From the NCBI GenBank assembly GCA_023954155.1, contig JAMLIO010000002.1, positions 256,221-320,220 on the forward strand: a stretch of 64,000 bases of DNA. The letters are read 5' to 3'. The stretch's first letter is position 1, and each line of letters starts with the position of its first letter. Positions 9,897 to 56,186 of this stretch are shown in pieces. Source of the DNA: Pseudobdellovibrionaceae bacterium. GTDB lineage: Bacteria; Bdellovibrionota; Bdellovibrionia; Bdellovibrionales; UBA1609. The notes under the pieces are model-generated. The model did no database searches. It had not been told where the DNA came from and saw nothing but the letters and a program-made list of their open reading frames with translations. The position numbers and the translations under genes were made by a program.

Positions 9897-10215
9897 GCTT
9901 TATCTCTTAGGGTTTGAAATTCTCTTGAGTTTCTTAGTTTAGACTTGATTTTGGAATTGAGATTATACCTTAGCTTCCAACGCAGCAGAGAGCGGGTGCA
10001 AAGCGTCTTCGGCTTTCATCATACCTTTGGGATTCAACTTGGAAATAAGAGAAACCCCTTTGGGGCCTCCCTTATTTCCAAGTTGAATCCCAAATCTATG
10101 CCGCAAGTCGGATACGCATAGCTCGCCTCTGGAGGTTGTAATCTAAGATATAATCTCAATTCTCAATCGAATTAAACTTAGAAACTCAAGGAATTTCAAG
10201 GCTAAGAGATGAGGC
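9897..10215. repeat. giant palindrome P1 (family A)
   Basis: A 319-bp near-palindrome between two convergent genes, 15 bp after one stop and 19 bp after the other. Reading inward it has outer arms that pair with each other, a conserved imperfectly paired middle module, and a variable but perfectly paired inner stem (10029-10049 with 10071-10091). A conserved tip contains CCCC-TTT-GGGG. The conserved parts appear on the minus strand: CCTCCAGAGGCGAG... on one side, GAAAGCCGAAGACGC... on the other. The outer arms resemble those of P2. Confidence 0.9.
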
Positions 10216-11123: not shown

Positions 11124-11448
11124 TTCCGCCTCAGTGTTTGATTTGAAGTTCTTTTGAGTTTCTTGGTTTAGACTTGATTTTAAAGTTCAGATTATATCTT
11201 AGATTGCAACCTCCAGAGGCGAGCGATGCGTATCCGACTTGCGGCATAAGTTTGGGTTGAGATTTAGATTGAGGGAAGCTCCAAAGGAGTTTCTCTCAAT
11301 CTAAATCTCAATTCAAAGTTATGACGAAAGCCGAAGACGCATTGCACCCGCTCTCTGCTGCGTTGGAAGCTAAGGTATAATCTGAACTTTAAAATCAAGT
11401 CTAAACCAAGAAACTCAAAAGAACTTCAAATCAAACACTGAGGCGGAA
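11124..11448. repeat. giant palindrome P2 (family A)
   Basis: A 325-bp near-palindrome whose right edge is one base from the stop codon of the radical-SAM gene. The outer arms (about 77 bp) pair almost perfectly. The middle module starts with CCTCCAGAGGCGAGCGATGC at 11210 and its partner starts with TATGACGAAAGCCGAAGACG at 11320. An inner stem built on GAGATTTAGATTGAG and a tip with GCTCC-AAA-GGAG complete it. It also occupies the upstream region of the Lys/Ala-rich gene. Confidence 0.92.
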
Positions 11449-33674: not shown

Positions 33675-33919
33675 CTTGCGTCCTGTCTCTGAGAGTTGAG
33701 TTTCGAGTGACCCTTAGAGGCCGACCTCCAGAATCGAGCGATGCGTATCCGACTTGCGGCATAGATTTGAGATTTAAGGTTGAGGGGGGAGCCCAAAGGG
33801 TTTCTCCCAACCTTAAATCTCAAATCTATGACGAAAGCCGAAGACGCTTCGCACCCGCCTTCTGCTGCGTCGGCGTCTAAGGGTCACTCGAAATTTAACT
33901 CTCAGAGACAGGACGCAAG
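33675..33919. repeat. giant palindrome P3 (family A)
   Basis: A 245-bp near-palindrome between rpsA and the HIT gene. The outer arms (about 50 bp) start CTTGCGTCCTGTCTCTGAGA and differ from those of P1 and P2. The middle module (CCTCCAGAATCGAGCGATGC on one side, TATGACGAAAGCCGAAGACG on the other) is nearly identical to theirs. The inner stem TTGAGATTTAAGGTTG and tip GCCC-AAA-GGG follow the family A layout. It is the only family A copy close to a gene start. Confidence 0.92.
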
Positions 33920-44375: not shown

Positions 44376-44643
44376 CTTTCAAACTGGCCTATCTCCTGAG
44401 TATTTCAAATTTAGATTCCCTTTGTTGTTCTTGAGTTTTTTAAGATCATCTAAAGCTCTTATATCTTTCAAAGGAGCCCCGCCCGTCCATGGGCTTGCCA
44501 GTATTTGCCCTTCGGGCAAAACGCGTCACGCTTACTGGAGGGCTCCTTTGAAAGATATAAGAGCTTTAGATGATCTTAAAAAACTCAAGAACAACAAAGG
44601 GAATCTAAATTTGAAATACTCAGGAGATAGGCCAGTTTGAAAG
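44376..44643. repeat. giant palindrome P5 (family B), 103-bp perfect arms
   Basis: 268 bp. Arms 44376-44478 and 44541-44643 are exact reverse complements over all 103 bases. The 62-base core is in minus-strand orientation: CTCCAGTAAGCGTGACGCG, TTTTGCCC-GAA-GGGCAAA, TACTGG, AAGCCCATGGACGGGC. Compared with P4, the outer hairpin pair changes from CCAGC/GCTGG to CCAGT/ACTGG, keeping the pairing. The right edge is two bases from the M48 gene stop codon. Confidence 0.97.
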
Positions 44644-44645
44644 AC

Positions 44646-45887
44646 CTACTGTGCTTTGGTTGGAAAACCATGCTTTGTAGCATGTTGTTGCAGGCGCTCG
44701 ATGCGCTCTGTGGTGAGGGGGTGAGTCGAAAGAATGCCCATCAGCCTGTCTGAATTTTTTTCTAACTCTTTACGACTTTGTTTCTTGTTTTTTTCGGTCG
44801 TCTTGGAAGTGTCATCAGCCGCAACAGGGCTGGTTTTGTCTGTGCTGGTGTCAGCTTTTGCATCTATATAGGCAGTTTTTGAATCAGTATCTTTTTTTGT
44901 ATCTTTAGCTGTTGTGTCGGTCTTGGTTTTTGTTTTAGTCAGTCGATCTAAACGTTGATACATGTACTCTTTGGCTGCGGCTTCGATCTTACTTAAACCA
45001 TCAGCAAGCAAAAGAGGATTGAGCTGCTGCTTGGCAAGAGCTTCTGCGCTGAAGTCATCGGCCTCTCTTTCATCGTCACGCGAGTAAGCGGCGTTAAGTA
45101 GAGTCAGCGTTAAACTGCCAAAGTCGGTGACCCCAAAAGCTAAACTGAGCATCGCATAGAGCCCCGCACTTTTGATAAGACCTTGTAAAGAGTGTCTATG
45201 ATACACATGCCCTACTTCGTGAAGTAAAATGGCGTGAAGCTCTTCGGGAGTGACTAAATCCAGCAGTTCTTTGTTGATAAGAATCTGTCCCGCAGGCAAG
45301 GCAAACGCGTTAGCTGTTGTGATCATCGAATGGGGTGAGATCATATCAATTTTTAAATTTAAATCAGGGTAGGTGGCGAGCACATTTTCTATCACAGCAT
45401 AAGACTCAGAATACTTTTGCGCATCAACGGGAACAAGTTTGACTTTCCATGCAAGGCTTAGTGTTTTTTTGGTACTGGTTTCTAAAACGTTTAAAACTGT
45501 TTTTGGGGTGCTAAAGGCCAGGCCTTTGGAACTCCAGGGAATAAGGTAGAAATGGGTGAAGAGCAAAAGCGCAAGGCCTATCACTGCGGCGGCTACAGCG
45601 TAGGTGATACGATTCTCCATTTGAAAGACCCAGCTTTGATGTTTGGCAGAAGGGAAAAAACTTTCAAACTTTTGATAATCAAAGCTTTCAAATCTGGCAC
45701 CATCAGTAAACTCGATGATTCTAGACGAAGAAGCCAGAGGACTGTGAACTTTAAATTCGTTTAAGGCGTAACTTTTAAGTTTTTCGCCTTGGTAAAAAAG
45801 GACAATACCGTGCGTGTGAAGTTCCAATTCGACTTCAAACTTGCGAGAGTCTTGTCCGTTAAAATAAAAACCATTTAAGTTTTGCAT
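44646..45887 (-). CDS. M48-family membrane metalloprotease
   Basis: The product has 413 residues. A short N-terminal beta domain is followed by one membrane segment (about 95-115) and the peptidase domain, with zinc motif HEVGH at 223-227 and downstream DDEREADDFSAEAL giving the third ligand. A Lys/Thr/Asp-rich, disordered insert separates the last conserved part (STHPLTTERIERL). It is similar to the BepA/LoiP/M48C type, degrading misfolded envelope proteins. It follows a YjgN-like gene, a frequent pairing. Its stop abuts palindrome P5. Confidence 0.9.
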   Translation of the reverse strand: MQNLNGFYFNGQDSRKFEVELELHTHGIVLFYQGEKLKSYALNEFKVHSPLASSSRIIEFTDGARFESFDYQKFESFFPSAKHQSWVFQMENRITYAVAAAVIGLALLLFTHFYLIPWSSKGLAFSTPKTVLNVLETSTKKTLSLAWKVKLVPVDAQKYSESYAVIENVLATYPDLNLKIDMISPHSMITTANAFALPAGQILINKELLDLVTPEELHAILLHEVGHVYHRHSLQGLIKSAGLYAMLSLAFGVTDFGSLTLTLLNAAYSRDDEREADDFSAEALAKQQLNPLLLADGLSKIEAAAKEYMYQRLDRLTKTKTKTDTTAKDTKKDTDSKTAYIDAKADTSTDKTSPVAADDTSKTTEKNKKQSRKELEKNSDRLMGILSTHPLTTERIERLQQHATKHGFPTKAQ

Positions 45888-45934
45888 AAGTCACATCTCA
45901 TAAGCCTCAGGGTAAACTGAGACTCTTTTAATTT

Positions 45935-46999
45935 TTAAAGCCCAAAATCAATATCCCAAAAGTCTGTGGCGGCCTCTGCGGCATAACCCTCAGGATTTTC
46001 TTGGGAGGCCAAAAATTGATTAAAGTCCTCTTCGGTGGCTTCGACAGATGTGTTTTCTAAGCGATATTTTAAAGCACGCACTTGGGCCCATGGTGTACCA
46101 AATCCTAGAGTGAATACAATAAGAAGTAAATTGGTCAACACTATAAATCCAAACTCAAAAGTGCCAAGATGAGCTTTTAATTTGACGTTGGCAATGCTGG
46201 AGTTGTTGGTGATCTCATTTACAATCATGGCTCGTTGAAATCCATACACAAGCGCCATGCCTAAATAAATTATACTTGCAGCTATAGGAATAATAAAAAG
46301 AGTAGCTGAACTTGTTGACCCCATTGCCATGGTTAATAAGGTGCTTATTAAGACAACTGGAATAAAAACAATAACAAAACCTAATAAAATCGAAGTGTAG
46401 AACAATTTAAAAAATGCACCAGCTCTGGCGTTATAGTGAAGTTCCGCTTTGCCATAGCGAATGTTATTCAAAATGAATCTATAGTGTCTGTAGAGTGCAT
46501 AAGGAAATGCAAGATACAAGGTGAAGGCGGTCACTATGACAGACAGGATGTAACTGAAATAGGAGTCTGCATAATTTTTGTTAAAGCCAAAGCGGATGTT
46601 GCGGTAAGAGCTATTACGATATTTAAAAATTGCTGAACGCACAATCACCCATGGAAAAGCTATAAGAAGTAAAATTAAAAATATACCCCAAAGCATAGGG
46701 CTTATGGCTTGGCTGATATTCAGCCCCAAGAATAAAACTAAGATGATAACACGACCGATTAAAATTTTGATGGGATCGGCATGATAGTCAAAAGAATCTC
46801 CCGCAAGGTAGGTGTTGCGGTAAAAGTATTTCATTTTTCTAACTTTAGCCCATGGAGAATAAATCCCTAAGGTGACAATGGTCAGTAAGGTGTTGATGAT
46901 CCAAATGCGGAAGTATTCAGAACCTGACCCTCTGAATTCCACGGTGTGGGTTTGGGGAGGACGTGTCCCGTATAAAGGTGAAGATATCTCTGTCGTCAT
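45935..46999 (-). CDS. YjgN-family (DUF898) membrane protein
   Basis: A 354-residue inner-membrane protein with about eight membrane segments. It has the two DUF898 signature stretches: FRGSGSEYFRIWIINTLLTIVTLGIYSPWAKVRKMKYFYRNT at the start and the related FGFIVLTNLLLIVFTLGFGTPWAQVRALKY near the end. Function unknown. The M48 protease gene lies 47 bp downstream on the same strand, so the protease and this protein may work together. Confidence 0.9.
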   Translation of the reverse strand: MTTEISSPLYGTRPPQTHTVEFRGSGSEYFRIWIINTLLTIVTLGIYSPWAKVRKMKYFYRNTYLAGDSFDYHADPIKILIGRVIILVLFLGLNISQAISPMLWGIFLILLLIAFPWVIVRSAIFKYRNSSYRNIRFGFNKNYADSYFSYILSVIVTAFTLYLAFPYALYRHYRFILNNIRYGKAELHYNARAGAFFKLFYTSILLGFVIVFIPVVLISTLLTMAMGSTSSATLFIIPIAASIIYLGMALVYGFQRAMIVNEITNNSSIANVKLKAHLGTFEFGFIVLTNLLLIVFTLGFGTPWAQVRALKYRLENTSVEATEEDFNQFLASQENPEGYAAEAATDFWDIDFGL

Positions 47000-47116
47000 A
47001 AGCTTTTACCTCTGATGTAATAGATTTTATGTTGTCACTTTAGTGTAGACAGCGGCCCACCAAATGACAACACAGCAGAGTAAGTTTGCTTAAAACTAAA
47101 TCAAAAGTCTTTAAAA

Positions 47117-48763
47117 CTACATAAAAGTATAGTTAGGGCCACTGCCACCTTCACGAGGCTGCCACCTTGGGCCCAGTACGTCTGTGGCTTTGCAGTCCAC
47201 ACAATTAGGCGCGTTGACGACAAGCTGATCGCCCTGACGTTCATAAACTCCTGCAGGGCAGAGGCTAGAGTAAAAGTCCGCAAGTTCGGCTGTGATGTCT
47301 TGGCCTACGGTCAGATGGGAGGGGATATCGTCACGGGTCTTGTTACCTGACTGATAAACGCCATCCACTTTTTTAAGCCCAGGATAATTTTTAGGATCTT
47401 TAAATAATTTCTGTTCATCGGCATCCTCTTCAATATGAGGAGCTTGCGGAGGAAAAGCACCTCCAGTCAACGTCATCAGTAAAGCTTTGATGCCACCAAT
47501 GATGAAGCCAGATTTAAAGGCCTGGCGCATGTTGCGCACTTTATAGAGGTCTTTATAAATAAAACTATTTTTTACGGCGTCATCATAGGATTTGAGGACT
47601 TCTCTTGAAAATTCAGCTTTGGGGATGGCAACACTGAGAGTGTCTGCGGCTAAAATTCCACTTTTCATAGCGTAATGAATGCCTTTAAGTGCGGGCACGT
47701 TCACCATACCTACCGCATCACCACAAAGCATAATGCCGTTGCCACTGAGCCTTTCAGGTAGGCTGTGAAATCCGCCCTCAGGAATAGTTTTAGCTCCCCA
47801 TTCTACAAGTTCAGCCCCTTCAAGTAAGGAGTGAAATAAAGGGTGAGCTTTAAGGTTTTGCAATTCTCCGTGCACATCTAGGTTGGAACTCTTGTAATCT
47901 AGTCCTCCTACAAGTCCTATCGCCATTTGATCATCGCCCATGGGATAGGCAAAGCTTCCGCCAAAGGTATCCCCTAAGGGCCAGCCCATAGTATGGATCA
48001 CGGAATCTAAAGGCTTTTTAAGGCGCCAAATTTCTTTCACACCTAGAGCATAAATTTGTGGCGCCATAGACTCTTGCCCCGACCACTTCAAATAACTTTG
48101 TGTTAAAGGGCCACGAGTGCCTTCGCAAAGTACTGTGACTGAAGCTAAAATATCTGTGTGGGGCATGTGTTGGGCACCAGGGGTACCATCACGATTTAGT
48201 CCCGCTTCCACTGTGCGCACTCCTATCACTTGGCCATCTTTGATCAGTAGACTTTCTGCAGGAAAGCTGGTGAACACGTTGATGCCTAAAGCTTCTGCTT
48301 TTTCACCCAGCCATCTTGTGACTTCACAAATAGAAGCGGCATAAAAGCCGTGGTTTTTCATTGTAGGAGGAGTGGGAATTCTAAAACTCTTTTTGGGGGT
48401 GAGCACATATACTTTTTCTGAATCCACTTTGTGTTTGAAGGGAAATTCTGAAGGGTCAAGCTCTGGGAAGAGTTCCATCAGGGCTACGGGGTTAATGATG
48501 GCACCAGATAAAGAGTGACCGCCTAAGGATTGGGCTTTTTCTAAAACGCCAATTTCTACGTCAGGGTAGCTTGGATCTTGAGTTTTAAGTTCTTGGACCT
48601 TTCTGGCTAAGCGAATGGCACCGCAAAGACCTGCGGGACCGCCGCCTACAAACAGCACGTCCATGGGGACGCATTCTTCTTCATTGACCTGGGGGTTTTC
48701 GATAATAAAACGGTTGAGGTCCAATTCTGGCTGATGATTTACTGGTTTAAAGCCTGATGCCAA
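47117..48763 (-). CDS. electron transfer flavoprotein-ubiquinone oxidoreductase
   Basis: About 548 residues. FAD-binding VLFVGGGPAGLCGA is near the start. The C-terminal CPAGVYE...NCVDCKATDV supplies the 4Fe-4S cluster, and the final GGSGPNYTFM is typical of ETF-QO. It passes electrons from acyl-CoA dehydrogenases via ETF to quinone, matching the FadE gene in this window. The TTG start at 48763 was preferred because AGGGAGG lies 5 bases before it; an upstream in-frame ATG at 48805 has no ribosome site. Confidence 0.94.
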   Translation of the reverse strand: MASGFKPVNHQPELDLNRFIIENPQVNEEECVPMDVLFVGGGPAGLCGAIRLARKVQELKTQDPSYPDVEIGVLEKAQSLGGHSLSGAIINPVALMELFPELDPSEFPFKHKVDSEKVYVLTPKKSFRIPTPPTMKNHGFYAASICEVTRWLGEKAEALGINVFTSFPAESLLIKDGQVIGVRTVEAGLNRDGTPGAQHMPHTDILASVTVLCEGTRGPLTQSYLKWSGQESMAPQIYALGVKEIWRLKKPLDSVIHTMGWPLGDTFGGSFAYPMGDDQMAIGLVGGLDYKSSNLDVHGELQNLKAHPLFHSLLEGAELVEWGAKTIPEGGFHSLPERLSGNGIMLCGDAVGMVNVPALKGIHYAMKSGILAADTLSVAIPKAEFSREVLKSYDDAVKNSFIYKDLYKVRNMRQAFKSGFIIGGIKALLMTLTGGAFPPQAPHIEEDADEQKLFKDPKNYPGLKKVDGVYQSGNKTRDDIPSHLTVGQDITAELADFYSSLCPAGVYERQGDQLVVNAPNCVDCKATDVLGPRWQPREGGSGPNYTFM

Positions 48764-48856
48764 TCCATCCTCCCTAGTTGAAAACAAAAAGATAATTGCC
48801 ACCATAGCTTAAATTAGGGGTATTATTCAAGAGCTTTCTGGGCGCTGGGTGGGCCG

Positions 48857-49861
48857 TTAAATTTTAAAAAGCTCTGGAATATCGGATTGGATATTTAGAG
48901 CTTTTTTTGTATGCGGGTGAATAAATTTGAGCGAGTGAGCATGGAGAGCTAGGCGAGGGGCTTCTTTTTCGCCTAAGCCGTAGAAGGGGTCACCTAGAAT
49001 TGGTAAGTTTAAAGATTTAAGGTGCACGCGGATCTGATGGCTTCGGCCCGTAATCGGGGAGCATTCGAGTAAAATTTGATCTGGGGTGAGTTTTAAAACT
49101 TTAAATTGAGTTTCTGATGTTTGTCCTTCTTTGGGGTCCATAGAAAAATAAAAAGGGTGTTTGGCAGTGGGTGTTTTTTTGATGAGGCCTTTGACCTCAA
49201 ATTTTTGTCCCTCTTGCAATTTGATAAGAGCCTCAGGATTATTTTTGACTAAAGCTAAATAGGTTTTTTGAATGCGCTTTTTATTAAATAAATCGGCCAT
49301 GCCTTTATTGATGGATGTTTTTTTAGCAAGCAGCAGTACCCCTGAGGTGTCACGATCCAGGCGATGACATAGGGCTAGGTAAGGGGCTTTGAGTCCTTTA
49401 AGGTTTTTAATGTAGTAGGCATACAGTAAAGATTTGGCGTGATCCTCAAAAAGATGAAAAGTGGATTGGGAAGGTAATCCCTCGGGTTTATTCAATGCCA
49501 CAAGTTCTTCGTCTTCAAAAAGCAAATCCGATTTTTTGATATGAAAGTCTGCGGAAGGAAATCCCAAGGTTTGATTTTCAAAGCCCACTAAAATTTTGGT
49601 TTTGCCTTTAAGTGGAAAAGGCAAATGCGGGATTTTTTTATGATCTACAAACACCAGTCCCTTTCTTACGCTGTCAATGAGATGTTTTTTTTCGATGACA
49701 GTGGTTGGGGCAAAACGTTTGGGAGTTTTAAAATTCTTCTGCTTGGCCATATACGGCAGATTCAGGCCTGGGATTTGTCCTGCAAACCATTGGACCAAAA
49801 AATCAGAAACACACATAGACCTGTGTTCTTTGACAGAAGCTGAGATTTCGATCACTTTCAT
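48857..49861 (-). CDS. RluA/RluD-family pseudouridine synthase
   Basis: About 334 residues. The catalytic Asp is in HRLDRDTSGVLLLAK, and ITGRSHQIRVHL and LALHAHSLKFIHP are conserved. The N-terminal ~95 residues lack a clear S4 domain but include WFAGQIPGLNLPY. It modifies uridines in rRNA or tRNA; which site is unknown. The start at 49861 fits the divergent gene, which starts 25 bp away. Confidence 0.9.
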   Translation of the reverse strand: MKVIEISASVKEHRSMCVSDFLVQWFAGQIPGLNLPYMAKQKNFKTPKRFAPTTVIEKKHLIDSVRKGLVFVDHKKIPHLPFPLKGKTKILVGFENQTLGFPSADFHIKKSDLLFEDEELVALNKPEGLPSQSTFHLFEDHAKSLLYAYYIKNLKGLKAPYLALCHRLDRDTSGVLLLAKKTSINKGMADLFNKKRIQKTYLALVKNNPEALIKLQEGQKFEVKGLIKKTPTAKHPFYFSMDPKEGQTSETQFKVLKLTPDQILLECSPITGRSHQIRVHLKSLNLPILGDPFYGLGEKEAPRLALHAHSLKFIHPHTKKALNIQSDIPELFKI

Positions 49862-49886
49862 GGGGTGGTTATATAATGGAGTGCAG

Positions 49887-50873
49887 ATGAAATACAAATG
49901 TCTTCTTTTTGATCAAGATAGAAAAGCAAAAATTATAGAGCGTGATACCGACTCATGGGTTTTAAACACAGGAGAGTTGATCATCCAAGCCGAATACAGC
50001 AGCATTAACTATAAAGATGCCTTGGGTGTGTTAGATAGAAGCCCTATTTTTAAAATTCATCCCATTGTTCCAGGGATTGATGTGGCAGGTGTGGTTTTAA
50101 AATCTCAATCTAAGTCTTTTAAAGAAGGTGACCTTGTGCTGGTCAACGGCATGGGGTTAGGTGAGGACAAAGACGGTGGATATGCCGAATATGTCAAAGT
50201 CCCAGACTCGATTGTGGTGAAAAGACCAAAGGCACTCACGTCTAGACAAGCGATGGCTTTAGGCACAGCAGGATTTACTGCGGCCTTAGCTGTGGACCGT
50301 ATGCTGACTAATGGACAAACTTTTGAGAAAGGTCCTATTTTGGTTTCTGGTGCCACAGGTGGCGTGGGCAGTTTTGCCATTCAGATTTTATCACAACTGG
50401 GTTTTTTTGTAGAAGCCACCACCTCAAGACCTGAAGAGTATCAGACTTATTTAGAAGATTTAGGGGCTCACCTGGTTTCCAACGTTAAAGAAGTGATACA
50501 AGAGGATGGACCTCCACTGGTGAAGGCCCAGTGGGGTGGAGTGATTGATAATTTGGGTGGTGCCTTTTTACAAAGTGTGCTGCCTGCTGTGGAGTTGTGG
50601 GGGAATGTGGCCTCTATTGGCTTAGCTATGGATGCGAAGCTAACCACCACAGTGATGCCTTTTATTTTAAGAGGGGTCAGTCTTTTAGGAGCAAGTTCTA
50701 ATAACTGTGAAAAGTCCAAGCGTGATGAACTGTGGGAGAGATTAGCTGATTCATGGCGCCCCCGTCACATTGAAAAGCTGATCACAGAAGAGGTGCAGCT
50801 TGAGGATGTTCCTAAGTCCTGTGAAAGGCTCATTGGACATTCTAATCATGGACGAGTGGTGGTTAAAATTTAA
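49887..50873 (+). CDS. YhdH/AcuI-type acrylyl-CoA reductase-like oxidoreductase
   Basis: About 328 residues of the zinc-free medium-chain dehydrogenase/quinone reductase fold. NYKDALGVLDRSPIFKIHPIVPGIDVAG at the N-terminus and LVSGATGGVGSFAIQIL for NADPH binding match the YhdH/AcuI family, which reduces acrylyl-CoA to propionyl-CoA. GGAG lies 5 bases before the ATG. It is convergent with, and overlaps by four bases, the redoxin gene. Confidence 0.9.
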   Translation: MKYKCLLFDQDRKAKIIERDTDSWVLNTGELIIQAEYSSINYKDALGVLDRSPIFKIHPIVPGIDVAGVVLKSQSKSFKEGDLVLVNGMGLGEDKDGGYAEYVKVPDSIVVKRPKALTSRQAMALGTAGFTAALAVDRMLTNGQTFEKGPILVSGATGGVGSFAIQILSQLGFFVEATTSRPEEYQTYLEDLGAHLVSNVKEVIQEDGPPLVKAQWGGVIDNLGGAFLQSVLPAVELWGNVASIGLAMDAKLTTTVMPFILRGVSLLGASSNNCEKSKRDELWERLADSWRPRHIEKLITEEVQLEDVPKSCERLIGHSNHGRVVVKI

Positions 50874-51457
50874 AGGCGAATGATCTGACAACCTAAAGTG
50901 CGGCCATATTTGACTTTAGGTGTTTGGCCCTTTGCCACTTGCCCTAAAGCTTCTCGTAAAAATTTCTTTTTTGCATGAGAAAAGTGCGAACTGTCACTGA
51001 CGCCACCTTTATAAAGAACTTCCCCCTTAGCGTTTAATAAAAAAGTGTGGGGAGTTTTAAGAGCTTTAAACTCATCTGCAATTCGTGCTTTTGGGTCAGA
51101 GATGACGGGAAAAGGAATGTTTTTGCTTTTAAAATATTTAACAGCAGTTTCATGGGGCTCGTTAGTATTGGAGTGCACAAAGACAAATTGAAAATCTTTG
51201 TAAGTGCTTGCCAGCTCTTTAAGTTCCTCAACATGACTGTTAGAACAAGGACAGTAGGCCGACATAAACGTCACTACATAGCCTTTGGGTTTAAACTCTT
51301 TTGATTTCTGTAAGTCCTTCAAGCTAAAGGCCTCAAGCTCAGGTAAAGTTTGCCCATAAAGTCCCCCCAAATCCAAAGTCTCAGCCCCTGCAAAGGCACT
51401 GCTACAAAAGAAAATTAAAAAGACCACACAGCGAAAAAAAACCAATGAAACCCTCAA
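50870..51457 (-). CDS. exported AhpC/TSA-type thioredoxin-fold protein
   Basis: The product has 195 residues with a signal peptide (cut after AFA). It has a redoxin fold: VVTFMSAYCPCSNSHVEEL carries a CPC pair at the active site, followed by the cis-Pro loop KTPHTFLLNAKGEVLYKG. A final GCQI Cys may form a resolving disulfide. Likely periplasmic thiol peroxidase or reductase. Confidence 0.85.
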   Translation of the reverse strand: MRVSLVFFRCVVFLIFFCSSAFAGAETLDLGGLYGQTLPELEAFSLKDLQKSKEFKPKGYVVTFMSAYCPCSNSHVEELKELASTYKDFQFVFVHSNTNEPHETAVKYFKSKNIPFPVISDPKARIADEFKALKTPHTFLLNAKGEVLYKGGVSDSSHFSHAKKKFLREALGQVAKGQTPKVKYGRTLGCQIIRL

Positions 51458-51663
51458 TCAAATTCAGTTAGGCATGAATTTGCAAACACACAGTCATACT
51501 CAACGTCGTCAATTAAACCAAAACATCACTGACTAGGTAACACACCTAAGCGACATTGTGAACGCCAAAGCACCAAAACTTATCCTAAAAAAACTAAAAA
51601 ACAAACCACCACCACTCACTCAAATCGTCGACTGAAACATTTTGTTGCACCCAAAGCCCCGCA

Positions 51664-51819
51664 GGTCTCTTCCTTTTGTTTGTTGTATAGATTTATATAG
51701 GATCAAAATGTGAGTTCGGCTTGGCATGCTTTTGCGAACGCAAAGGCATATGCCAAACGTCACTGTCTGAGCATTTTGATCTCTATATAAATCTATACAA
51801 CAAACAAAAGGAAGAGGCC
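51664..51819. repeat. palindrome P9 (third type)
   Basis: 156 bp. Outer arms of about 38 bases (TCTTCCTTTTGTTTGTTGTA...) continue into GATCAAAATG/CATTTTGATC. Then an unpaired internal loop (10 against 15 bases) precedes an apical hairpin with TTGGCAT and TTTGCG-AA-CGCAAA. The overall shape is that of families A and B, but the core sequence differs. The right edge is 29 bp from the stop of the downstream minus-strand gene. Bases 51458-51663, left of it, hold nothing I can identify. Confidence 0.85.
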
Positions 51820-51848
51820 CCTTGAGACCTTCGAGAGCAGAAAAGGTT

Positions 51849-52568
51849 TTAGTCCAGAGGCAAGGCCCAGTCTATTTTTGTGATTTTATTATCCTCAAAA
51901 GAAAACACCACACATGAACTGCTATAAATAGGCCCAGCTTCGGTCACCTCTTGCAGTTCACACATTTCAAAAAAATCTTGCTCGTCAGTGCTGACTTCAA
52001 AAAGTTTTTCTAATTCTTCACGGGTGCTTTCCACTTGAAGAGGTAAAACACCTTCCAGTCTTTTCTTACGTTCATTGAGGGTCATACCCAAAAAGTTCAC
52101 ATACTCTGGACGGCTTTTGTCGGCATAAAGGTCCATGTCCGCTTTGTTAAAGCTGAGTTTAACTACGGTGTCCATGCTTTGATCATGATGATTTTGGATG
52201 TGTCTTTCTTCACGTTTAGGACGTTCCCCAAAAAGTTTAAGTAAAGCCTTTTCGTTGTGAGGCAGGCGACGAAGCATGATGTACTCGTTACGCACAATTT
52301 GGATAGGCTCAATGCCATTATGGGCTTCAGCTTTTTGTGTATGTTGTGAAGGCGAGGCTTTGGGAGTTGTAGCTGCTGCAGGAGCAGCTTTCTTTTGAGC
52401 GAGATGTTGAGGCAGAGCTTTTTTCTGAACAGGCGATTTAGGAATGGATCTGGTGGCGGTATTTTTCTGCGAAGCTTTGTGAGAGTTTTTTGCAGGTGTG
52501 CGGTATTGGGCCATACTGATGCTGCCAAATCCAAAAATGATAAGAGAAAAAAATAAAATAGACCTCAT
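51849..52568 (-). CDS. exported protein of unknown function, low-complexity linker
   Basis: The product has 239 residues: signal peptide cut near MAQ, a Lys/Ala/Pro/Gln-rich linker to about residue 90, then a compact domain containing FNKADMDLYADKSRPEYVNFLGMTLNERKKRLEGVLPL and two Cys pairs near the end. I recognise no family. Its 3' end is 29 bp from palindrome P9. Confidence 0.7.
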   Translation of the reverse strand: MRSILFFSLIIFGFGSISMAQYRTPAKNSHKASQKNTATRSIPKSPVQKKALPQHLAQKKAAPAAATTPKASPSQHTQKAEAHNGIEPIQIVRNEYIMLRRLPHNEKALLKLFGERPKREERHIQNHHDQSMDTVVKLSFNKADMDLYADKSRPEYVNFLGMTLNERKKRLEGVLPLQVESTREELEKLFEVSTDEQDFFEMCELQEVTEAGPIYSSSCVVFSFEDNKITKIDWALPLD

Positions 52569-52762
52569 AAGTAAATATTAGAAGACTCCTTTTTAAATTC
52601 AACGTCTAGGATGACAATTTTCGTCCACAGGGTGATTTTTTACATAAATCTAGACCAGAAATTCTCATAAATTAGAGGTGAAAAAGGTACAGATATTGAA
52701 GTGGGAAAAGCAGGATGCGAGTTATCGCATTTAAACGATTTGAGACCAAAACAGGGAGAAAA

Positions 52763-53878
52763 ATGTCAGTGCTTAAGAACGACCATGGAACGTCATATCA
52801 GCTGAAAACTAGTGCGCGCACAAAAAGAGGATATTTTGTGCTGGTTCTGTGTCTTTACAGCTTGGGATTCTCGGCTATGGCCTCTGCAAACACTGTAACA
52901 GGGGTTTTACAAAGTGAACTGACTTTAAGAGAAATGCACCCCAGTGAAGAGTTTTTGTCTCTTATTGATGAACTCAGTCCCACAGGCTTCAGGCTGCCTA
53001 AGGGAACAAAAATCAGTTATACTCCAGGAAACACCATAGAGCCGTATTCCTACGAAGATGATGAAAAACCTGGTGAAGTCATCAGCTCTTCTATTTTTCC
53101 ATTTCAACAAAATATTCGTATTGATGTTTTGCCCAGTTATTCAGACGAAGTGAAGGCTGTTTTAAATAAAAAGCGCATTTTTATTTCTGAACCTCAGTTG
53201 CAAACTTTAAAATTAGACACACAAAGTGTATCCAACGCACAAAGTTTTCACCGCTGTGCAGAGACTTTGATTGGAAAAGTGCAAGGAGACAAAGAGCTAG
53301 GGGCTCAGGTCAAACGTAATTTTCCTTCCGTGCTTAAAAGCACCATTGTCGCCAGAGGTAAATATAATGCTAAAGGTTTAAGAGACGACTATGTGGCCTT
53401 TATTGATTATTCGGTGTCTTCGGCAGAAAAACGTTTTTTTCTTGTGAATTTATCGAGCTGTTCTTATTCCACAGAGTTTGTTTCTCATGGGAGTGGTGTG
53501 AAAGGCTCTGGAGGAACGAAATCCATGTTGCAAAGATGTGCGACGGGGCCTTTGGGTTCTTCGACAAGAAAAAATCGCACTCGCGATGGCTTTTACAAAG
53601 TAGCAGGTGGACATACGACGTCTAAATTCTGGCCACTCATTGGAAAGATTAGTGGGAAGAACTACAAAGCTCTTAAGCTGGTGTCCTTAGACGGTAAACA
53701 CAGAGATGTAGAAAGCAGTGGCGTGGTGATGCACGAAGCTCCTGCGTATATGGTCAACGTTCCTCAAGTGCAGGGACGCAGCAGTGGGTGTCCTGCTTTT
53801 GCCAGAGGTCGTTTGAAAAATATGGTCAGTCGAGTTAACGGCTCACTTTTATACATCCACGCTCCGCAATGCCAGTAG
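52763..53878 (+). CDS. L,D-transpeptidase-like murein enzyme (YkuD_2)
   Basis: About 371 residues: N-terminal signal or anchor (about 25-45), a middle region of about 150 residues, then the catalytic domain. That domain has FVSHGSGVKGSGG, VVMHEAPAYMVN and GRSSGCPAFARG, supplying the His and Cys of the murein L,D-transpeptidase catalytic family. Such enzymes make 3-3 crosslinks or edit the wall; predatory bdellovibrios use several on prey and self walls. The start at 52763 follows GGGAG. The stop is three bases from palindrome P6. Confidence 0.88.
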   Translation: MSVLKNDHGTSYQLKTSARTKRGYFVLVLCLYSLGFSAMASANTVTGVLQSELTLREMHPSEEFLSLIDELSPTGFRLPKGTKISYTPGNTIEPYSYEDDEKPGEVISSSIFPFQQNIRIDVLPSYSDEVKAVLNKKRIFISEPQLQTLKLDTQSVSNAQSFHRCAETLIGKVQGDKELGAQVKRNFPSVLKSTIVARGKYNAKGLRDDYVAFIDYSVSSAEKRFFLVNLSSCSYSTEFVSHGSGVKGSGGTKSMLQRCATGPLGSSTRKNRTRDGFYKVAGGHTTSKFWPLIGKISGKNYKALKLVSLDGKHRDVESSGVVMHEAPAYMVNVPQVQGRSSGCPAFARGRLKNMVSRVNGSLLYIHAPQCQ

Positions 53879-53881
53879 GTA

Positions 53882-54048
53882 GGGCTTACTCAGATTTGCT
53901 CTTCTATTTCCTCCCTCCATTTCGTGACAGACCTCCAGCAAGCAGGACGCGCTTTGCCCCATAGGGGCAAATGCTGGCAGAGCCCACGGAGGGGCGTGTC
54001 TGTCACGAAATGGAGGGAGGAAATAGAAGAGCAAATCTGAGTAAGCCC
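53882..54048. repeat. giant palindrome P6 (family B), 51-bp perfect arms
   Basis: 167 bp. Arms 53882-53932 and 53998-54048 are exact reverse complements. The 65-base plus-strand core has CTCCAGCAAGCAGGACGCG, TTTGCCCC-ATA-GGGGCAAA, TGCTGG, AGAGCCCACGGAGGGGC. The inner hairpin has one more G-C pair than in P4, gained on both sides. It starts three bases after the L,D-transpeptidase stop. Confidence 0.97.
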
Positions 54049-54160
54049 CCTTAAAGTGTTTTAATTGCAGTTCAGCTCTAAAATGCTTAAAAAGTAGTGC
54101 TTACGAAACTTTTTACTTCTTTTAAGGTTTCCTCCTTAACACAACTTTGGAGGTGTCCAG

Positions 54161-54766
54161 ATGAGTAAGTTTATCGTAAATCAATCTATTGTTTTAAGTT
54201 TCATTTTGCTGTTCTCCTGGTCAGCATCAGCGCAAGGGCTTTACCTTAAGGGGGCCCTCGGGGGAACTCATCAAGGGTCAAACTCTTTTATGGGTGGCAG
54301 TGTGGACTATCAAGGTTCAATGCTGGGGTCTTTGATGTTTTCTGTGGGCATGAACTGGGGACAGTATTTTGTAACGGAATTAGAATTCAGTTCAAGAACC
54401 GTAGACTTAGATTATGTGAACGGAACGCCCGCCATGGGAGAAGTGTCAGCAGGCATGTTGGGCGTAAATGGACTTTTTAATATTCCCATTGGACTTCATC
54501 ACCGTGGCTTTATTGGAATGGGTTTTGGAGTTTTAGGTGTGGAAATGACAGATGACCTTACGGGGAATTTTGCGGATGGATCGCAGTTGGCTAGGCAGTA
54601 CATCGTAGGTGCGGAAACGGCAGTCAGCCCGCGTTTTGATGTGTCTTTTGAATTACGACATCTCGTCACAGACAACCTTCGTTTGAGTGGCACGTCGGGA
54701 GCATGGGGTGAACGTTTTAATTATAAAAACACCTCGATGCTTTTAGGTTTAAAATACAATTTTTAA
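54161..54766 (+). CDS. outer-membrane beta-barrel protein
   Basis: The product has 201 residues: signal peptide cut after ASA, then alternating strands rich in Gly, Tyr and Phe (LYLKGALGGTHQG, FVTELEFSSRTVDLDYV, FDVSFELRH) and a C-terminal Phe after LLGLKYNF, as expected for an eight-stranded OmpA/OmpW-like barrel inserted by BamA. TTGGAGGTG precedes the start. Function unknown. Confidence 0.88.
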   Translation: MSKFIVNQSIVLSFILLFSWSASAQGLYLKGALGGTHQGSNSFMGGSVDYQGSMLGSLMFSVGMNWGQYFVTELEFSSRTVDLDYVNGTPAMGEVSAGMLGVNGLFNIPIGLHHRGFIGMGFGVLGVEMTDDLTGNFADGSQLARQYIVGAETAVSPRFDVSFELRHLVTDNLRLSGTSGAWGERFNYKNTSMLLGLKYNF

Positions 54767-54777
54767 AAGGATTTCAG

Positions 54778-54813
54778 GGGTATGAGGGAAACACGGTCTT
54801 TTCCTCTCATGCC
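54778..54813 (+). terminator. hairpin after the barrel gene
   Basis: GGTATGAGGGAAA pairs with TTTTCCTCTCATGCC in a 13-bp stem with one bulge, 12 bp after the stop. The following sequence is T-rich but broken, so termination strength is uncertain. Confidence 0.55.
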
Positions 54814-54838
54814 TGCTTTCTTGCTTTATCCCCATCTG

Positions 54839-54875
54839 TGTGGAGCTAGGGAGGCCGTGCAAACCTAGCTCCACA
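54839..54875 (+). promoter_or_regulatory. 12-bp leader hairpin before the PTPS gene
   Basis: TGTGGAGCTAGG pairs exactly with CCTAGCTCCACA across a 13-base loop. No T-run follows. It is 15 bp before a second hairpin that covers the next start codon, so the pair could form a leader switch or attenuator; it could also be a second weak terminator of the barrel gene. Confidence 0.5.
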
Positions 54876-54889
54876 ATGCTTTTGCAATC

Positions 54890-54920
54890 CCATAGGGCTT
54901 ATGCTAGTTAAGCCCTATGG
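54890..54920 (+). promoter_or_regulatory. hairpin hiding the PTPS start codon
   Basis: CCATAGGGCTT (54890-54900) pairs exactly with AAGCCCTATGG (54910-54920) across a nine-base loop. The ATG at 54917-54919 lies inside the 3' arm. No ribosome site is visible outside the hairpin. Confidence 0.6.
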
Positions 54921-55396
54921 CTTTTCGACTTAAAATCACTAAGGATCGCATTAAATTTTCTGTAGCTCACTTTACTATTTTCAGTGAGACTCAGGCAGAG
55001 CGTCTGCATGGCCATAATTACTATGTGAGTTTAGAAGTGCGGGTGAGTGATGTGGACTCGTTGGGGTTTGCGGCCTCTATGGAAGACCTTAAAGCGGCGA
55101 GTTATAAAATTTCTCAAGAGTTAGATGAATATGTACTGGTGCCCACTCAAAATCCGCATTTAAAAATTTCAGAAATTAAAGATCAGGTTGAAGTGCTGTG
55201 GAACAGCAAACAGTATCTGTTTCCTAAAGAAGACGTGCGGCTGTTAGACATTTCAAACGTGACGTGTGAAAATTTAGCCCAGTGGTTTTGGCAAAGGCTG
55301 ATTAAAGAATTGTCACCGACCATTGAGCATTTAGAGATCACTGTGCGTGAGACCCATGGACAAGAGGCCATTTATGGCAAGGAAGTAAGAGTATGA
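54917..55396 (+). CDS. PTPS-family protein, possibly PTPS-III (FolB-replacing)
   Basis: A 159-residue COG0720 protein. Zinc His ligands are His18 (VAHF) and His31/His33 (HGHNY). The place where QueD has its catalytic Cys, four residues before HGH, is Ala27, followed by Glu28: an ExxHGH motif. To my knowledge ExxHGH marks PTPS-III, which replaces dihydroneopterin aldolase in folate synthesis. It could instead be an inactive partner of the second copy. Four-base overlap with that copy implies a shared operon. Confidence 0.75.
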   Translation: MAFRLKITKDRIKFSVAHFTIFSETQAERLHGHNYYVSLEVRVSDVDSLGFAASMEDLKAASYKISQELDEYVLVPTQNPHLKISEIKDQVEVLWNSKQYLFPKEDVRLLDISNVTCENLAQWFWQRLIKELSPTIEHLEITVRETHGQEAIYGKEVRV

Positions 55397-55938
55397 GACT
55401 GTCATTTAAATACAGATTTGAAGCTGCCCATCGTTTTGTGCATTCAGACCATGCTTGTGCGACCCCTCATGGTCACACATGGTATGCCACTCTTAATCTT
55501 ATGGGTGCCACTGAAGACATGGGTGAAAACAACATGGTAGAGGACTTTTTCCTACTTAAAAAAGACTGGAAGCAATTTATCATGGAAACAGTAGATCATT
55601 CTTTTTTTCACAATAGTGATGATCCTATTTTACCAGCTTTAAAACAACACATTCCCAACCTAAGAAGTCTTCCCTTTCCAGGAGACCCCACAACGGAAGT
55701 CATCGCAGGTTTATTTTTTCTTAAAGCCACTGCCTTATGCGAATCTTTACCCGTACGTCCTTTTTCAGTTTTGATTGAGGAGACGCCTACGAATTCCATC
55801 GAATTTTACAATACGGAATTAGAAGACTTTATTAGTAAACTCAATCTCAGTCTAAAGTCGAGCAACTGGTGGGCCAACAACGACCCCACAAGTCGCAGCA
55901 TCTTCGGAGACCCCCAACCCCAATCCGCGACCCTCTAG
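55393..55938 (+). CDS. queD: 6-carboxytetrahydropterin synthase QueD-like
   Basis: The product has 181 residues, longer than the usual ~120-140. It keeps the complete QueD site: His13, Cys22 in CATPHGH (CxxxHGH), His26 and His28. VDHSFFHN and LIEETPTNSIEF provide the other catalytic His/Asp and the pterin-binding Glu. It makes the queuosine precursor 6-carboxytetrahydropterin. The C-terminal 25 residues are polar; the last two codons and the stop lie inside the left arm of palindrome P7. Confidence 0.85.
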   Translation: MRLSFKYRFEAAHRFVHSDHACATPHGHTWYATLNLMGATEDMGENNMVEDFFLLKKDWKQFIMETVDHSFFHNSDDPILPALKQHIPNLRSLPFPGDPTTEVIAGLFFLKATALCESLPVRPFSVLIEETPTNSIEFYNTELEDFISKLNLSLKSSNWWANNDPTSRSIFGDPQPQSATL

Positions 55939-56186
55939 CTCTAGGTCCTTTTATATTCCTACGTAAATTTAAAACCTCCTTATCTATAAGAACATTTAAA
56001 ATTCAAGCATCTATTTTAAAGCAGACGCGCCCATCTATGGGCTCTGCCAGCATTTGCCCCTGTGGGGCAAAACGCGTCCGCTTGCTGGAGGTCTGCTTTA
56101 AAATAGATGCTTGAATTTTAAATGTTCTTATAGATAAGGAGGTTTTAAATTTACGTAGGAATATAAAAGGACCTAGAGCTAGAGGG
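55931..56186. repeat. giant palindrome P7 (family B), 96-bp perfect arms
   Basis: 256 bp. Arms 55931-56026 and 56091-56186 are exact reverse complements over 96 bases. The 64-base core, in minus-strand orientation, has CTCCAGCAAGCGGACGCG, TTTTGCCCC-ACA-GGGGCAAA, TGCTGG and AGAGCCCATAGATGGGC. The left arm contains the queD stop codon (55936-55938), so at least part of the arm is host gene sequence. The region to 56323 right of it is otherwise empty. Confidence 0.97.

Follow-up and report, generated by a model that had tools for sequence, protein, structure and literature searches.

Perfect inverted repeats in the window

How can uninterrupted inverted repeats with arms of about 100 bp be kept in a chromosome, and from where does the sequence of the arms come? 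The question is posed by the window, i.e., the whole 64,000-nucleotide stretch of DNA analysed here, and in it above all by two palindromes, P5 and P7, whose arms are given without strand. The left arm of P5 (44376–44479) is 104 nt long and 100% complementary to the right arm (44540–44643), and between them is a conserved core of 60 nt (44480–44539, minus strand; model R1, 114.2 bits at 44452–44565). Between the end of the right arm and a stop codon lie 2 nt; the gene in question (44646–45887, minus strand) is metallopeptidase-like in having an HExxH-type motif. The 96-nt arms of P7 (55931–56026 and 56091–56186), also 100% complementary, enclose a core of 64 nt (56027–56090, minus strand; 108.8 bits at 56000–56115). 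The left one overlaps the final 8 nt of a queD-like gene (55393–55938, plus strand) and the right one is an inverted copy of that gene end; both genes are annotated from sequence. An earlier note on this DNA had given P7 arms of 96 bp and centres of about 63 bases, with which these measurements agree, as they do with its 51 bp for P6. For P5 its perfect arms stand and its 103 bp becomes 104 nt. It had also put the queD stop codon and last two codons inside the P7 arm; the stop (55936–55938) and the last sense codon are indeed there, with only two bases of the preceding codon.

P6 (53882–54048, plus strand, 115.6 bits) begins 3 nt past the stop of a gene at 52715–53878 and has perfect, 100% complementary arms of 51 nt (53882–53932 and 53998–54048) around the same core, here 65 nt (53933–53997). 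P4 (40792–40968, plus strand, 125.1 bits), again with that core, has imperfect arms of ~56 nt, with 1 G-T, 2 A-C and 1 gap. P8 (60154–60261, plus strand, 87.9 bits) had been thought decayed, and it is probably a decayed copy of the same element, making five copies of one core in the window if P4–P8 are taken as such.

The length and perfection of the P5 and P7 arms are far beyond chance. Nine other genomes of the order, sampled in 20-kb stretches at a scoring minimum of 28, had no inverted repeat with arms of at least 45 nt; 300 kb of the source genome from outside the window yielded three, and the window by itself has seven that exceed the minimum.

A common core

P5, P6 and P7 are copies of one dispersed element with 20 copies in the 2.44-Mb genome, six of them clustered in ~24 kb at the end of the contig that holds the window. 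Of 141 genomes searched in the order, 35 have matches to the element model (E up to 1e-4); their distribution is patchy, and multiple copies are frequent. What is conserved is a ~60-nt core with four short helices, plus ~10–45 nt of the adjoining arm. In the fold of an alignment of 32 copies, taken from the source genome and UBA6776 (a Bdellovibrionaceae assembly), the arms form a basal helix, inside which the stem CCAGCA/TGCTGG encloses a mini-hairpin (AAGC..GA.GCG) and a second, variable hairpin; then comes a small hairpin (GGA loop). The mini-hairpin motif is near-invariant across copies, though almost all stems differ. Scattered through the genomes of Bdellovibrio-like bacteria, this palindromic element has a centre common to its copies and arms that are copy-specific.

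Is it already known under another name? No Rfam family was matched at the gathering score, the only matches being sub-threshold ones to long-hairpin microRNAs, and in the papers on Bdellovibrio repeats that were consulted no earlier report of this element family was found. Viral contigs had no match to the exact core pattern, on which ground carriage of the element by phage was rejected. One exact match to that pattern occurs outside the order, in Pelagibacterium limicola (L064), and may be chance. In G011, which appears to be UBA6776, core copies form a tandem array with a spacing of ~118 bases (C42:494–1029).

Other palindromes have other centres. A second core family (GAGCAATGCGTATCCGAC ... 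GCCGAAGACGCTTTGCACCCG) is present in the window at 9897–10215, 11124–11448 and 33675–33919, and elsewhere in L056 (10445–10643), L059 (6448–6724), L183 (4530–4767) and L195 (359–614 and 13704–13964). Its inner hairpin and outer arms are variable, with perfect arms up to 74 nt, and it resembles the first family in GCAAGY-GGAY-CGC. A third (TCGGCTTGGCA ... TGCCAAACGTCACTG), also with copy-specific arms, is at 51664–51819 of the window and in L061 (3615–3763 and 6265–6415). A 38-nt perfect inverted repeat in G046 (L168 8645–8786) has a different centre and possibly represents a further core family.

Local copying and mirrored change in the arms

Are the arms carried along with the core or made anew at each site? 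In the source genome, arm similarity among copies drops to background ~45–50 nt from the core, and for cores that share at least 90% identity inside a genome the outer arms are near shuffled similarity (G055, G082, G092, G093 and G000). Three copies in G093, e.g., are near-identical in the core and the inner 13–14 nt, and have unrelated outer arms, each paired perfectly or nearly so. Exceptions are G136 and part of the G086 and G000 copies, which retain arm similarity, so that some copies do carry arms along.

The clearest site is L020. One of its arms includes the last 27 nt (nine codons) of a dppC/oppC-type permease gene, whose encoded C-terminus, GDGLRDAFDPKMKK, agrees with that of orthologues from relatives and with solved structures, and the other arm is the inverted copy, terminating exactly at the stop codon of a convergent gene. 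As the gene end is native on one side of the core and inverted on the other, local copying of flank into the opposite arm is, on comparison of the sequences, demonstrated at this site. For the outer arms of P5 and P7 we infer a local origin. The attempt to orient the copying at P7 through QueD orthologues was abandoned: the QueD tail has no counterpart in them, and so the direction of copying there cannot be shown. In L249, L252 and L272 the arms seemed to overlap genes over long stretches, and these cases were set aside, as the open frames look spurious. The earlier note had argued for local copying and against carriage of the arms by the element. Local copying stands, best at L020; the exclusion of carriage falls for the inner arm, since within ~45 nt of the core the arms still resemble those of other copies and only the outer part is local.

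In the source genome many copies lie just 3′ of stop codons, and their orientation with respect to genes is not consistent. In most of the G082 copies (L264–L269) the right arm is directly followed by an 11-nt tail, CGTTTACAAGA, that is conserved although the arm between core and tail varies, and other common tails occur in G093, G092 and G015. Such a tail may be the true end of the element or its target.

Do perfect arms remain perfect by active repair of one from the other? One orthologous site is present in four species with single-contig genomes (G048, G066, G061 and G063) and was undetected in eight more distant genomes. On comparison of its arms for paired substitutions, a check that the earlier note had proposed, all changes proved to be mirrored: between G048 and G061, whose flanks differ by ~6%, each 34-nt arm has 5 substitutions and a 2-bp deletion, every one with its partner in the opposite arm. 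Recent duplicates likewise have mirrored substitutions and a mirrored 1-bp deletion, and the active arm-to-arm repair which that note had raised is thereby borne out. The G048 and G066 arms are identical despite 16–18% flank divergence, and all four species retain a small internal loop, with the arm outside it homogenised; the kept loop and these identical arms imply that selection on structure or sequence also acts. Just before the arm at this site, G066 (L291) has TCA where G048 has TAA.

Building the arms and moving the core

What process could build such arms and keep them paired? We consider it probable, though with a good deal of reserve, that a hairpin core seeds template switching that builds and homogenises them. 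The core would spread by transposition, and at its new site the core hairpin would let DNA polymerase switch strands, such that the other side receives a copy of one arm together with its adjoining flank, and the outer arms become inverted copies of local DNA. Repeated switching could then keep the arms identical while their sequence changes, the enzymology being that suggested by analogy with known quasipalindrome template switching. Such switching creates and maintains perfect stems (PMC8794818). In the source genome the arms would have grown to up to 104 bp, often halting at a gene's stop codon, presumably since overwriting of coding sequence is selected against. Several features of template switching are seen here: multi-base arm changes are mirrored, flank is copied inverted (L020), and in one case, P8 (L032), the core is flipped relative to the flanks it shares with its sister copy L026, orientation being judged against sister copies. 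Such spacer inversion is as template switching predicts (PMC8604942), though arm recombination would look alike.

The earlier note had suggested a search for sbcC and sbcD, and both proved to be undetected in the source genome. With this loss the genome is probably left without the nuclease able to cut hairpins of this kind. Above the cut-off, sbcD was found in none of the same-family genomes searched and in only three from another family. As long perfect palindromes are missing from the samples of relatives negative for sbcD, loss of SbcCD was rejected as a sufficient cause; it is permissive at most, i.e., it permits palindromes and does not make them.

What, then, would move the core? The Y1 (RAYT) transposase (PF01797), present in 5 of 14 control genomes, is absent from the source genome and so was rejected as the mover. 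An origin through reverse transcription was also rejected, the only reverse transcriptase found (L287 1333–2307) having a retron-like neighbourhood, ~9 kb from the nearest copy, and no core beside it. A composite transposon with pairs of inverted cores as its ends (L028/L029 and L026/L027) fared no better; repetitive RHS-like fragments and an IS3-type element occupy the L028–L029 interval, and the common flanks look like neighbourhood duplication. No direct repeats of the target-site duplication type were evident on inspection of copy flanks. That a mobility enzyme was not found among the candidates examined counts against the account given above.

The foremost alternative to template switching at an established core is that target flank of a fixed length is copied, inverted, to the other side in the very act of insertion, with arms that are born perfect and decay later. 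Arm lengths are narrow within some genomes and different between them (28–33 nt in G082, 31–33 in G015, 30–43 in G086 and 52–72 in G092), which is easier to reconcile with a length fixed when the core inserts than with growth without limit, and the almost identical cores with unrelated outer arms, as well as the decayed arms in UBA6776, would also be expected. However, the source genome has a wide range (32–104) that favours later arm growth, no enzyme is known for the reaction, and orthologous arms changed together long after insertion, so later copying exists too. We think mirroring at insertion rather unlikely, and an order-wide mobile core without fixed ends, which at each insertion would take as new ends a set length of inverted target flank, is put forward just as tentatively.

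Template switching has also to be set against a structured RNA, of which the arms would be the basal helix, paired through ordinary compensatory selection. In the 32-copy alignment both partners change in 23 of 23 arm pairs and the core stems covary, which is what such an RNA would yield, and to this can be added the internal loop retained across four species and the many copies right after stop codons. Yet 1017 of the 1047 arm pairs in the source genome are Watson–Crick, with 15 G-T (~1.4%), 8 A-C and 7 other, and that is few G-T (G-U) pairs for a fast-changing RNA helix. The second genome counted has a mild excess of G-T over A-C (62:38), a point against template switching. Deletions are mirrored in both arms, the copies in the source genome lack that consistent gene-relative orientation, and arms of 83–104 bp are beyond any evident need of the core. 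An RNA is an improbable explanation of the arms. Because G-U pairs are rare, arm pairing looks to be maintained by DNA copying, i.e., template switching, more than by RNA selection.

Could the core instead insert into the centre of perfect palindromes that already existed, e.g., terminators? Yersinia YPAL elements do have dyad symmetries, or positions adjacent to them, as their targets (PMC2229807), but bare perfect palindromes with arms of at least 28 nt are nearly absent from the relatives' samples and the dppC-type arm holds native coding sequence, which makes this very unlikely. As for a fold-back chimera of assembly, the assembly has 15 contigs but a mis-join at P5 or P7 is unlikely because every centre is the same ~60-nt core, and as the element is also in many other assemblies, single-contig genomes among them, we give artefact almost no credence.

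In dozens of genomes the same core stands beside independently made arms, and together these copies form a record of arm-to-arm copying that nature has replicated. With it one can test by what route perfect stems come into being and last in chromosomes, and whether covariation of the kind read as structural RNA can come from DNA copying rather than selection. A further question is how an element with a conserved centre but no conserved ends is moved, in bacteria that have no SbcCD to act as hairpin nuclease.

How does the element stand beside known systems? In the quasipalindrome template switching of Lovett and Ripley (PMC8794818, PMC8604942), arms are made identical in one step and the identity is extended into flanks, likewise with spacer inversion and mirrored multi-base changes. 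Here, in contrast, a conserved element present in scattered copies supplies the hairpin that acts as seed, the process recurs at many sites and the arms reach 104 bp. Copies of YPAL often lie beside stop codons. YPAL/RU-2 of Yersinia, RPE, RUP and NEMIS (PMC2229807) are likewise dispersed hairpin elements, of ~100–270 bp; on comparison by description, those are conserved repeat units whereas here only the centre is common and the arms are unique. REP elements with RAYT transposases (PMC3733652) are also intergenic, multi-copy and hairpin-forming, but the present element is longer, has a four-helix core and is in a genome without the Y1 transposase. With MITEs it shares being short and non-coding with inverted repeats. 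MITEs, however, must conserve their ends, and conserved terminal inverted repeats across copies are not what is seen here: similarity is at background beyond ~45–50 nt, outer arms are near shuffled, and the ends are the least conserved part of the element.
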